Assembly: GCA_016871775.1 (NCBI GenBank)
Contig: VHCI01000015.1
Coordinates: 1 to 45,320, forward strand
DNA: 45,320 nucleotides
Direction: 5' to 3'
Source of the DNA: Verrucomicrobiota bacterium
Lineage (GTDB): Bacteria > Verrucomicrobiota > Verrucomicrobiia > Opitutales > Opitutaceae
Part shown: one piece after another, positions 10,731 through 15,109 of the stretch
Layout: every line of letters starts with the position of its first letter
Numbering within the stretch: the first letter of the stretch is position 1
The notes under the pieces: model-generated
Seen by the model: the letters and a program-made list of their open reading frames with translations, nothing else
What the model was told of the DNA's origin: nothing
Database searches by the model: none
Position numbers and translations under genes: made by a program

Positions 10731-12065
10731 CTACATAGTTGCCGCGCGGCGCACCGGCGTGACCTCGCCGCGGGCCACCCGCAGCAGTTCGCGCCGGAGC
10801 CAGTCGAGGGCGGCATTCACGGCGCGCGCCTTGATCGTGCCGCGCGGCCCCGGGTAGCTGAGTTTTTTCGCCCAGACGCCGCCGGGGGTGAGGAGGCCGA
10901 CGTAGATCGTGCCCACCGGGCTGCCGCCGCGGCCGGTCTCCGCCGCGCCGGCAAAGCCCGTGATGGCAAGGGCGTAGTCCGCACCCAGCGTGTCGGAGGC
11001 GCCGGTAGCCATCGCGACCGCGGCCTCCTCGCTGGCCGCGCCGTGCTGGAGGAGCAGGCACTCGGGGATGTCGAGCAGCTGGGATTGCGTGTCGTTCGTG
11101 CAGGCGACGACGCCGCCGGCGAAGAACTTGCAGGCGCCGCAGGACTCGGTGAACGCCTGGGCAAGGAGACCGCCGGTGGCGGTCTCCGCCACGGCGAGGC
11201 GCTTCTCCTGGGCGCGGAGCAGGTCGGCGCAGACCTTGGCGAGCGTGTCATGGCCGCGGGAGACCACGTCGTCGCCGAGCAGGCCGGCGCACTCCGCCGC
11301 CACGGCCTCGACCGCCGCCTCGTCGAGGGAGCCGACCGGCGAGCTGAGGCGAAGGTCGACGGCGCCCTGGTGGGCGCAGAAGGCGACACTAAGGCCGGGG
11401 CCGGCGCGGTCAAAAATGGGCTGGAGGCGGGTCTCGAGGGCGGACTCGCCGATGCCGGCGGTGCGCAGCTGGACGTAGGCCTCGCGGTCGCGGAGGAGTC
11501 CGCGCGCGGCGAGGCGGGGCACGACCTGGCCGAGGAACATCGGCTGCAGTTCGTTGGGCGGGCCGGGGAGCATCACCAGCACGCGGCCGCCCTGCTCCAC
11601 CCAGAGGCCCGGGGCGGTGCCGTTGGCGTTGGCGAGGACCTCGCCCCCCTCAAAGACCTGGGCCTGCTTAAGGTTATTGGGCGTCATCTTCCGGCCAATC
11701 CGGGAAAAGCGCTCCTCGATGGCGGCCTCCACCGCGGGATCGTGCACCAGCCGGCGGCCGAGGACGGCCGCGACGGCGTCGCGGGTACGGTCATCGCAGG
11801 TCGGCCCGAGGCCGCCTGTGGTGATCACGACATCCGCCCGCGCCCAGCTTTCCCGGAACTGCGCCGCGATGGCGTCGGCCTCGTCGGTGAGGGTGACGTT
11901 GCGCTGGAGGAGCGCGCCGCGCCGGCCGAGCTGGGAGCCGATGAAGGTGAGGTGCCCGTTCGCCGTGAGCCCGAGGAGGAGCTCGTCGCCCAGCGTGAGC
12001 AATTCGTAGCGCACCGCGGCGACGGCGCGGGGGGCGGGGGGGACGGCGGACGGGGAAGGTTGCAT
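10731..12065 (-). CDS. cinA: CinA family protein (pyrophosphatase / nicotinamide-nucleotide amidase)
   Basis: A 444-residue two-domain protein. The N-terminal MoCF-like domain (about residues 15-180) shows LTLGDELLLGLTANGH, VVITTGGLGPTCDDRT and MLPGPPNEL; the C-terminal amidase-like domain (about residues 280-440) shows RTAGIGESALE before it and ITGFAGAAE near its end. The family hydrolyses ADP-ribose-type pyrophosphates and deamidates nicotinamide mononucleotide. The usual amidase motif AESCTGG reads AETATGG here, with Thr295 at the Ser position and Ala for Cys, so amidase activity is uncertain. The start MQPSPSAVPP is chosen because upstream in-frame codons overlap the divergent uvrC leader. 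It is cytoplasmic, and divergent from uvrC with 73 bases between the starts. Confidence 0.92.
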   Translation of the reverse strand: MQPSPSAVPPAPRAVAAVRYELLTLGDELLLGLTANGHLTFIGSQLGRRGALLQRNVTLTDEADAIAAQFRESWARADVVITTGGLGPTCDDRTRDAVAAVLGRRLVHDPAVEAAIEERFSRIGRKMTPNNLKQAQVFEGGEVLANANGTAPGLWVEQGGRVLVMLPGPPNELQPMFLGQVVPRLAARGLLRDREAYVQLRTAGIGESALETRLQPIFDRAGPGLSVAFCAHQGAVDLRLSSPVGSLDEAAVEAVAAECAGLLGDDVVSRGHDTLAKVCADLLRAQEKRLAVAETATGGLLAQAFTESCGACKFFAGGVVACTNDTQSQLLDIPECLLLQHGAASEEAAVAMATGASDTLGADYALAITGFAGAAETGRGGSPVGTIYVGLLTPGGVWAKKLSYPGPRGTIKARAVNAALDWLRRELLRVARGEVTPVRRAATM

Positions 12066-12138
12066 TTTGCGCGTCCGGATCCTAGGCGAATTCTCCCGAA
12101 ATGCCAGCGGCCGTTCCGTCCGGGCCGCGCAGGGAACG

Positions 12139-13650
12139 ATGCGTGAACACAAGCCGACGACTTTGAAGGAGAAGGTGCGCCGCCTACCGGAGCGCCCCGG
12201 CGTGTACCTGATGAAGGACCGTCTGGGGAGGATCCTCTATGTGGGGAAGGCCCGCAGCCTCCGGCACCGCGTCTCCTCGTATTTCCAGCGCAGCCGCGCA
12301 TTCCGCACCTCGCAGCCCAAGATCCGCGCGCTGCTCGAGCTGATCGCCGACTTCGAGGTGATCGAGGTGCGCTCCGAGCCCGAGGCGCTGCTGCTGGAGG
12401 GTCGCCTGATCAAGCAGTGGCGACCACGGTACAACACCGACTTCACCGACGACAAGCGCTTCCTGCTCGTGCGGGTGGACCTTGGCGAGGCGCTGCCGCG
12501 CTTCCGGCTCACCCGCCTGCGGAAGGAGGACCGCGCGCGTTACTTCGGGCCCTTCGCCCACAGCGGCCTGCTCCGGCGCACGCTCGCCCAGATGCGGCGC
12601 CAATTCGGCGTGCTGCTCGCCGACGGCACCCCCACGCGGCTGGAGGACGGCAGCTGGCGCCTGTATGACGACGTCCGGGCCGAGCTCTACGGGGGCGACC
12701 ACGTGGTGACCACGGCCGCCTACCGCGAGCGCATCGAGGCCGCGTGCGCCTTCCTCGAGGGGAAATCCCGCGAGTGGGTCGACTCGCTGCGGACGGAGAT
12801 GGCGGCGGCCGCGGAGCGACGCGACTTCGAGCGAGCGGCGGAATTGCGGGACATCGTCTTCGCGCTCGAGCAGACGCTGCGCCGGACCCGCCGCTTCGAG
12901 CGAGCCGATCCAGTGCGGCCCGCCGGGGGCGCGGCCGCGCTGGAGGCCCTGCGGGAGGTCCTCGCCCTACCCGCACCGCCCGCGGCGATGGAGTGCTTCG
13001 ACATCTCGCACATCTCGGGCACGTTCGTCGTCGCCGCGATGGTGCGCTTCACCGACGGCAAGCCCGACAAGGACCAGTACCGCCGTTTCCAAATCCGCAG
13101 CTTCGTGGGCAACGACGACTACCGCGCGATGGAGGAGGTGGTGGGCCGCCGCTACCGGCGCCTCGCCGCCGAGGGGAAGCCGCTGCCGGACCTCGTGGTG
13201 ATCGATGGCGGCCGGGGCCAGATCGGCGCCGCACTGCGCGCCTTCGTTGCGCTGGACCTCGAGCCGCCGGCCGTCATCGGCCTCGCCAAGCGCCACGAGA
13301 CGATCCTCTTCGCTGACGGCCGCGCGCCGCTCAACCTGTCCCTCAACCACCCCGGCCTGAACCTGCTGCAGCGCCTGCGCGACGAGGCCCACCGGTTCGC
13401 GAACACCTACAACGCGGACCTCCGCTCGCAACGCCTGCGCGAGAGCGTGCTGGACGAGTTCCCCGGCCTTGGCCCCGTCCGGCGCGCCGCCCTGCTTGCC
13501 GCCTTCGGCGACATCCAGCGCCTCCGCGCCGCCCCGGTGGAGGCGATCGCGGAGGTGGACGGCTTCGGCCCGCGCCTCGCCGCCGAGCTGCATGCCTTCC
13601 TGCAGCCCCCTGCCGCCCCCGAATCCGCGCCGCCCGACCTGGATCCCTGA
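12139..13650 (+). CDS. uvrC: Excinuclease ABC subunit C, lacking the cysteine cluster
   Basis: A 503-residue protein of nucleotide excision repair, which makes the 3' and 5' incisions with UvrB. The N-terminal GIY-YIG nuclease (about residues 15-95) shows PGVYLMKD and ILYVGKA; a UVR-type helical pair lies at about residues 205-250; the RNase H-like nuclease shows ECFDISH, DGGRGQIG and RDEAHRFA with the expected Asp and His residues; a helix-hairpin-helix pair ends the protein (FPGLGPVRRAALL, VDGFGPRLA). Between YFGPF (residue 135) and the AFLEGK motif, the four cysteines that bind an iron-sulfur cluster in other UvrC proteins are all replaced. It is somewhat shorter than the usual 600 residues. 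The ATG is preceded by AGGGA, one of the few weak Shine-Dalgarno-like sites here. Confidence 0.93.
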   Translation: MREHKPTTLKEKVRRLPERPGVYLMKDRLGRILYVGKARSLRHRVSSYFQRSRAFRTSQPKIRALLELIADFEVIEVRSEPEALLLEGRLIKQWRPRYNTDFTDDKRFLLVRVDLGEALPRFRLTRLRKEDRARYFGPFAHSGLLRRTLAQMRRQFGVLLADGTPTRLEDGSWRLYDDVRAELYGGDHVVTTAAYRERIEAACAFLEGKSREWVDSLRTEMAAAAERRDFERAAELRDIVFALEQTLRRTRRFERADPVRPAGGAAALEALREVLALPAPPAAMECFDISHISGTFVVAAMVRFTDGKPDKDQYRRFQIRSFVGNDDYRAMEEVVGRRYRRLAAEGKPLPDLVVIDGGRGQIGAALRAFVALDLEPPAVIGLAKRHETILFADGRAPLNLSLNHPGLNLLQRLRDEAHRFANTYNADLRSQRLRESVLDEFPGLGPVRRAALLAAFGDIQRLRAAPVEAIAEVDGFGPRLAAELHAFLQPPAAPESAPPDLDP

Positions 13651-13665
13651 GGGCCGGCCCTTCAG
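13647..13665 (+). terminator. Hairpin spanning the uvrC stop codon
   Basis: CTGA-GGGC pairs with GCCC-T-TCAG around a two-base CG centre, with one bulged T. The stop codon is inside the left arm. There is no T-tract, so termination is doubtful. Confidence 0.25.
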
Positions 13666-13708
13666 TACTTGGCACGCTGAGCCACGCGGCTTTGCTCGGG
13701 GAACCCCG

Positions 13709-15109
13709 ATGAAACCGCTTCGCCGCCCCGCCCCCGCCCGCCTGCCCTTCGCGGCGGCCTTTGCCGCGCTCCTCCCGCTCCTGCCCGCCGCGCCGGCGCC
13801 CGCCGCTGGTCCGGCGGACCCCATGCGACCCAATATCATCTTCCTGATGGCCGATGACCTCGGCTGGGGCGACGTTGGCGCCTACGGCCAGCGGCACATC
13901 CGCACGCCGCACGCGGACCAGCTCGCGCGCGAAGGCCTGCGCTTCACCGACGTCTACGCGGGCGGATCCGTTTGCGCCCCGTCGCGCAGCGTGCTGATGA
14001 CCGGCCAGCACCTTGGCCATACGCGCGTGCGCGGCAACAGCGGGATGACCGGCGGCGTAGGCGAGCAGCGACGCGTGCCGCTGGAGCCGGGCGACGTCAC
14101 CGTTGCGATGCTCCTGCGCCAGGCCGGCTACGCCACCGGCATCACCGGCAAGTGGGGCCTCGGCGAGCCGGGCACCACGGGCATCCCCAACCGCAAGGGC
14201 TTCGACGAGTGGTACGGTTACCTGAACCAGGCCCACGCCCACACCTACTACACGGACCACCTGTGGCGGAACGAGGAGCGCGTCACCCTGCAGGGCAACC
14301 TCAACGGTCAGACGAAGGAGTACTCCCACGACCTGTTCGCGGAGTTCACCCTCGACTACGTGCGCCGCCACCGGGACCGCCGCTTCTTCCTCTACCTCGC
14401 TTGGACCCTCCCGCACGGCAAGTACGTCGTCCCCAGCCTCGAGACCTACGGCGACCGGGACTGGCCGCAGGACTACAAGGTGCACGCCGCGATGGTGACC
14501 CGCCTCGACCGCGACCTCGGCCGCCTGATGGCGCTGCTGCGCGAGCTGGGCCTCGACGACCGCACCATTGTATTCTTCTGCTCCGACAACGGCGGCGTGG
14601 ACCGGCGTGAGAACGTCCTCGACAGCGTCGGCCCGTTCCGCGGCAAGAAGGGCGTACAATACGAGGGCGGACTACGAGTGCCGATGATCGTGCGCTGGCC
14701 CGGCCGCGTGCGGGGGGGCGCCGTGAGCTCCGCGCCGTGGTACTACGCTGACGTGCTGCCCACGCTGGCGGAACTGGGTGGCGCCCAGGTGCCTGGGGGC
14801 GTGGACGGGGTGAGCGTGGTGCCGACCCTCCTCGGCCGCGAGCAGCCTGAGCTGCGGACCCGGAAGCTTTACTGGGAACAGTACAGCGGCGGCGGCTTCC
14901 AGCAGTCCGCGCGCTGGGGCCGCTGGAAGGGCCACCTCCAAGCGGGCCGAGACCAATTCGAGCTCTACGACCTAGAGCAGGACCAGTTGGAGGCGCGCAA
15001 CGTCGCCGCCGCCCATCCTGAGGTGGTGCGCGAACTGCGGGCCTTCTTCACGCAGGCCCACGTCCCCTCCGCGAACTGGCACGTGCGCCCGCCGGCGGAG
15101 AAGCACTGA
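13709..15109 (+). CDS. Secreted sulfatase (arylsulfatase family, FGly type)
   Basis: A 466-residue sulfatase with a signal peptide (FAAAFAALLPLLPAAPAPA). The metal-binding start is PNIIFLMADDLGWGDVG, and the active-site CxPSR motif is VCAPSRSVLMTG with Cys89 to be converted to formylglycine. GKWGLGE, FFCSDNGG and the C-terminal substrate block complete the fold. The enzyme would remove sulfate esters from glycans in the periplasm or outside the cell. No sulfatase-maturing enzyme is encoded in the window, so maturation must come from elsewhere in the genome. It is close to A-type (S1_16-like) sulfatases by motif style, but the subfamily cannot be fixed by eye. It ends 12 bases before a convergent oxidoreductase gene. 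Confidence 0.93.
   Translation: MKPLRRPAPARLPFAAAFAALLPLLPAAPAPAAGPADPMRPNIIFLMADDLGWGDVGAYGQRHIRTPHADQLAREGLRFTDVYAGGSVCAPSRSVLMTGQHLGHTRVRGNSGMTGGVGEQRRVPLEPGDVTVAMLLRQAGYATGITGKWGLGEPGTTGIPNRKGFDEWYGYLNQAHAHTYYTDHLWRNEERVTLQGNLNGQTKEYSHDLFAEFTLDYVRRHRDRRFFLYLAWTLPHGKYVVPSLETYGDRDWPQDYKVHAAMVTRLDRDLGRLMALLRELGLDDRTIVFFCSDNGGVDRRENVLDSVGPFRGKKGVQYEGGLRVPMIVRWPGRVRGGAVSSAPWYYADVLPTLAELGGAQVPGGVDGVSVVPTLLGREQPELRTRKLYWEQYSGGGFQQSARWGRWKGHLQAGRDQFELYDLEQDQLEARNVAAAHPEVVRELRAFFTQAHVPSANWHVRPPAEKH

Follow-up and report, generated by a model that had tools for sequence, protein, structure and literature searches.

UvrC of an Opitutales bacterium with a conserved sequence module in place of the four-cysteine iron-sulfur segment

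UvrC proteins with and without the cysteine segment

The iron-sulfur knuckle of UvrC is thought to hold the two halves of the protein in place or to contact DNA. DNA binding, structure and redox signalling along DNA are candidate roles of its [4Fe4S] cluster. In the annotated E. coli protein, the four cysteines C154, C166, C174 and C178 lie between the GIY-YIG and UVR parts. The [4Fe4S] cofactor of canonical UvrC, the subject of a study of 2020 by Silva, Grodick and Barton, is described in PMC8837605 and PMC9426483, and the latter also describes participation of the cofactor-bound motif in complexes of UvrC with dsDNA. The UvrC of Mycoplasma resembles the protein reported below in that the cysteine segment is missing and the remaining domains are kept; however, the Cys-rich domain is reported as deleted there, whereas a conserved replacement is present here. 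A parallel in an enzyme unrelated to UvrC is provided by 'clusterless' MutY, a DNA-repair enzyme that does without the 4Fe4S cluster in some lineages (PMC11078426). Short UvrC proteins of other Verrucomicrobiota, Anaerovibrio and other Selenomonadaceae have the same architecture without PF22920 as the protein studied here, but keep the four cysteines. In the open-licence papers searched, we found no report of a replaced UvrC iron-sulfur segment or of Verrucomicrobia.

The window, i.e. the whole stretch of DNA analysed (45,320 nucleotides, contig VHCI01000015.1 of the Opitutaceae assembly GCA_016871775.1), contains a uvrC gene whose features are compiled in Table 1. The gene product passes the NCBI equivalog cut-off of TIGR00194 (373.3 bits, cut-off 285.45), stays below that of a second UvrC model (NF001824, 360.2 bits, cut-off 451) and is not Cho (NF007833, 38.9 bits, cut-off 367). 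GIY-YIG, UVR, RNase H and HhH domains follow each other in the order of canonical E. coli UvrC; the differences are the lack of the four-cysteine segment and of PF22920 and a length shorter by about 100 residues. Residues Y23, Y34, R44, E80 and E87 of the GIY-YIG domain as well as D288, D356 and H418 of the RNase H domain are invariant across 48 aligned UvrCs. We take most of them to be catalytic, with D288-D356-H418 presumably forming the D-D-H triad known from work on Thermotoga UvrC. When an AlphaFold2 model of the protein was compared with solved UvrC domains, TMt values of 0.92 (2nrr, RNase H domain) and 0.90-0.93 (1yd6, GIY-YIG domain) were obtained, while the arrangement of the domains in the models of this protein and of Anaerovibrio UvrC is unreliable because of pTM values of 0.44-0.45. 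An earlier note on this DNA had described both nuclease domains and the HhH region as intact, and the Pfam matches and invariant residues agree with this, the HhH match clearing its cut-off by a small margin. The gene is flanked by a divergent ORF on the minus strand (10731-12152), presumably resembling CinA, and by a downstream ORF on the plus strand (13469-15109) that we take to resemble a sulfatase.

Table 1. The uvrC gene of the window and the features of its product
Feature	Position	Strand	Remarks
uvrC gene	12139..13650	+	503 aa plus stop; translation; NCBIfam TIGR00194 uvrC equivalog
GIY-YIG domain	12196..12435	+	residues 20-99; PF01541, E 3e-7
YFGPF flanking motif	12541..12555	+	residues 135-139
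Type A replacement module	12607..12711	+	residues 157-191; occupies the place of the four-cysteine segment
FLEGK flanking motif	12751..12765	+	residues 205-209
UVR (UvrB-binding) motif	12781..12870	+	residues 215-244; PF02151, E 4e-6, 26.8 bits, cut-off 21.5
Short linker, site of PF22920 in canonical UvrC	12871..12954	+	residues 245-272
UvrC RNase H endonuclease domain	12955..13401	+	residues 273-421; PF08459, E 7.9e-52
Helix-hairpin-helix region	13450..13602	+	residues 438-488; PF14520, 27.6 bits, cut-off 27

Replacement modules and the absence of PF22920

The stretch from YFGPF to C203 does not contain a single cysteine, and the four cysteines of a [4Fe4S] UvrC (orthodox C4 type of PMC1564403) are absent from the protein, which has C203 and C286 as its only cysteines. 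The claim of the earlier note that the cluster site is devoid of cysteines is thus borne out. Its alignment of the segment by flanking motifs holds insofar as YFGPF and FLEGK do bound the segment, but a residue-by-residue match of the four cysteine positions is unreliable because the replacement aligns poorly with the cysteine segment. C203 (window positions 12745-12747) is located outside the cluster segment, two residues before FLEGK; it is 98% conserved in the type A proteins introduced below, and a cysteine is also found at this place in many four-cysteine relatives.

As judged from the sequences compared, the cysteine segment is replaced by conserved sequence and not decayed. Three types of replacement were distinguished: type A, to which the protein from the window belongs (consensus about FG[IV]LL.D..P...G.W.LYDD.R.E.Y), type B (about GVLTFGRG.PTERELKSSTYQVP..LS; families f12, f82, f103 and f105) and type C (about GVL[VI]QG.G.P...DLKYS.YLVPVPL; family f83). 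Identity between modules of types B and C is about 0.47-0.49, that of type A to either of them 0.11-0.14. Across 90 non-redundant type A sequences, four residues (G157, P165, Y176 and R180) never vary, and L175 and D178 (99% each), L159, L160 and D162 (97% each) and E182 (94%) are nearly invariant. Mean conservation in the same set amounts to 0.71 for the module and 0.72 for UVR, compared with 0.55 for the free linker and 0.81-0.82 for the nuclease domains. AlphaFold2 predicts an ordered type A module (block means 72-88) containing strands of two residues and one short helix; for the cysteine segment of Anaerovibrio UvrC, it predicts mostly coil with short helices (72-86). PDB matches to UvrC cover the GIY-YIG and C-terminal parts only, with no solved iron-sulfur segment among them.

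In canonical UvrC, the RNase H-like middle domain PF22920 sits between UVR and the 5' nuclease domain. This domain is absent from the protein encoded in the window, while a comparison UvrC (L105) scores 150 bits, and it was matched in 9 of the 48 members of alignment A1. A profile of our own for this region, built from ten canonical UvrC sequences, was run against 290 UvrCs and matched 11, namely the ten from which it had been made and another canonical protein; no verrucomicrobial UvrC in this set was matched, the cysteine-bearing ones included. Many short UvrCs have four cysteines (Anaerovibrio, other Selenomonadaceae, a Phycisphaerales MAG and cysteine-bearing Verrucomicrobiota), and a coupling of cysteine loss with PF22920 loss was therefore rejected: the two absences are separable, and a UvrC may lack PF22920 whether or not it has the cysteines. 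If E. coli UvrC were used for comparison, two differences would be confounded; better controls are those verrucomicrobial UvrCs that share the short architecture and have four cysteines. The earlier note had proposed the protein as a natural test of what the cluster does. The repeated replacements within the class (see below) speak for this idea and, together with cysteine-bearing relatives of the same architecture, constitute matched pairs for testing the role of the cluster. The designation as a cluster-free UvrC applies as far as the sequence goes but proved too narrow, as the segment is replaced, other families are concerned too and PF22920 is also missing.

Distribution and origins of the cysteine-free form

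Matches were found in 191 of 200 genomes searched in the family, in 374 of 387 in the phylum (with PF08459), in 56 of 61 in one other family and in 141 of 150 in the class, the draws overlapping one another. The state of the segment is known for the fetched loci only; those from 209 genomes are taken first, those on contigs of the nearest relatives after them. Within the Opitutales, the loss is clade-wide in the sample: all 45 genomes read, from six families and including the genome of the window, are cysteine-free in the segment. The type A pattern labelled 34 of these, and the 11 that it missed are visibly type A. Elsewhere in the class, four cysteines were found in 70 genomes, none in 49 (41 type B, 8 type C) and a truncated form in one, in a sample that is uneven since family f12 was targeted deliberately and supplies 31 of these 49. 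Outside the class, all 44 genomes read from the phylum have four cysteines. In the genomes read, cysteine-free UvrC therefore extends beyond the Opitutales, with three replacement types within one class. Among the contigs of the nearest relatives, 62 of 79 are verrucomicrobial (61 according to their titles and L044 by 76% identity), and all 59 readable segments are cysteine-free, a count that gives no estimate of frequency because the contigs represent the nearest relatives. The distribution is all-or-none: in an alignment of 267 UvrCs, which contains some duplicates across collections, 124 have a cysteine in all four columns, 143 have none and not one is intermediate.

Two side observations concern other families. 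An insertion of about 25 residues in the RNase H domain splits the PF08459 match in L144-L154 and L165-L194 (families f10, f12 and others), so that matches bearing it span 525-531 bases versus about 450. Two genomes of family f13 of the class (G233 and G253; 0.9 Mb, 99% complete) match neither PF08459 nor the UvrC from the window, and UvrC seems to have been lost there.

A phylogenetic tree was inferred for 74 UvrCs with the replacement or cysteine segment masked. Five changes between four cysteines and none are needed on this tree, and branches with good support call for at least four of them. Types A and C each make up one side of a well-supported branch, and type B appears in three places as drawn and in at least two by support. 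A single clade of all 28 cysteine-free rows was rejected on the masked tree (p-AU 7.7e-5) and so was a single clade of type B (p-AU 0.0002); the grouping was made with the sequences already in view, so that these p values serve as guides. On this tree, the cysteine-free state seems to have arisen more than once in the class.

The occurrence of type B in two lineages with dissimilar flanks suggests an exchange of the segment, which is the simplest reading of the type B pattern. Type B proteins of f82 and f12 are 73% identical in the module, 45% in the RNase H domain and 61% in the N-terminal part, and four-cysteine pairs with a flank identity of 0.50-0.55 have a mean module identity of 47% (sd 8, maximum 71, 189 pairs). 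A sliding comparison shows that, in windows 85-125 and 135-215, f82 resembles the other type B proteins more closely than it does either comparison group. Against an exchange speak the slow evolution of the type B module within the main lineage too (0.78-0.88), the lack of clean break points in the sliding comparison, the greater closeness of f82 residues 125-145 to type C than to other type B, and windows 305-335 and 415-445 outside the segment, where f82 is closer to other type B than to its cysteine-bearing sisters; the weak resolution of the tree for the N-terminal half weakens this reading further. Alternatively, the module may be ancestral and slow-evolving, with cysteines regained elsewhere. 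We tentatively offer, at somewhat less than even odds, the wider reading that the iron-sulfur knuckle of UvrC is an exchangeable module in this class of Verrucomicrobiota, that cysteine-free replacements emerged or were transferred on several occasions, with at least type B moving between lineages by recombination of roughly 70-100 codons, and that the cluster would be a structural option open to replacement, not something that UvrC requires for catalysis or charge transport.

Genomic context and weighing of explanations

The genome of the window (274 contigs, 96% complete) contains one PF08459 match, and searches with the PF08459 and GIY-YIG profiles found no second UvrC, cysteine-bearing or other, and no Cho. 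A second GIY-YIG match (16.8 bits) is below the cut-off and lies in a frame opposite another ORF that presumably encodes ribosomal protein S4. UvrB was matched once and UvrA-type proteins twice. One UvrA match corresponds to a 968-aa frame on contig C24, the other (L332, UvrA_inter, 58.3 bits, contig C2:43269-43535) is situated inside an 1889-aa open frame, perhaps a long or fused UvrA. EndIII_4Fe-2S gave no match in this genome at E <= 0.001; at E <= 0.1, the MutY frame scored 20.3 bits, above the cut-off only jointly with its neighbours in the frame. The cysteines of this MutY are spaced C-x6-C-x2-C-x5-C, the usual spacing of the Fe-S loop. A general retreat of iron-sulfur clusters from the repair enzymes of this genome is therefore unsupported; with the 4Fe-4S loop of MutY kept, iron-sulfur assembly for repair enzymes should still be present. 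Since the nucleotide excision repair genes and at least one iron-sulfur repair enzyme are retained, the change is located in UvrC.

With a probability of roughly 0.78, we favour the view that this UvrC is active and that its iron-sulfur knuckle is replaced by a conserved fold free of metal; activity and the absence of a cluster or metal are what we infer. On this view, the gene encodes the UvrC of this genome, the nuclease that makes both incisions in nucleotide excision repair, and the type A fold has taken the place of the four-cysteine [4Fe-4S] knuckle that would otherwise link the 3' nuclease (GIY-YIG) to the UvrB-binding motif. This fold may hold the two halves of UvrC in place or contact DNA, and if the module takes over such a structural or DNA-binding role, the cluster would be dispensable for incision. 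Repeated replacement would likewise be an argument that incision is possible without the cluster. The equivalog score, the invariant residues of catalytic type, the constrained and ordered module, the all-or-none cysteines, the presence of UvrA and UvrB and the Fe-S loop kept in MutY support a UvrC with a replaced knuckle. Against this reading count the narrow HhH match, the low pTM and, for a metal-free fold, the acidic residues D162, D178 and E182 of the module, which could bind metal. Their near-invariance in type A is what would be expected if the module bound another metal or cofactor, e.g. a divalent metal, and was free of Fe-S but not of metal; we consider this unlikely, as types B and C occupy the same place without these acidic residues, which could equally form salt bridges with the invariant R180.

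That the segment has been freed from its old role in an impaired or specialised UvrC, e.g. one that has lost 3' incision or damage-specific binding, would fit the participation of the cofactor-bound canonical segment in DNA binding, as given in PMC9426483. It is distinctly improbable, however, in view of the invariant residues retained in both nuclease domains, the constraint on the module and the single UvrC found in the genome. We give very little credence to a cluster held by the remaining cysteines, e.g. by C203 between two subunits: the conservation of C203 in type A would favour it, but the protein has two cysteines left and C203 is not specific to the cysteine-free form because many four-cysteine relatives possess it. 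A sequencing or assembly error, conceivable for a draft genome of this many contigs, is refuted by the same-genus genome L005 (95% identity), by the other Opitutales and by the readable verrucomicrobial contigs (59 of 62 fetched), which agree without exception.

A further peculiarity of a repair enzyme was noticed in the Nth-like glycosylase of the same genome (L276:1399-2052, contig C137), whose four C-terminal cysteines are unusually spaced. L333-L362 encode the same kind of glycosylase, and the spacing C-x4-C-x4-C-x2-C was found in 29 of 30 loci read. Besides the Opitutales, families f10, f14 and f88 of the class have this Nth. A linkage with cysteine-free UvrC was rejected: the two are not coupled because the f10, f14 and f88 UvrCs read keep four cysteines despite having the same Nth as the Opitutales, and those families whose UvrC is of type B or C give only distant matches to it, as judged by search scores.
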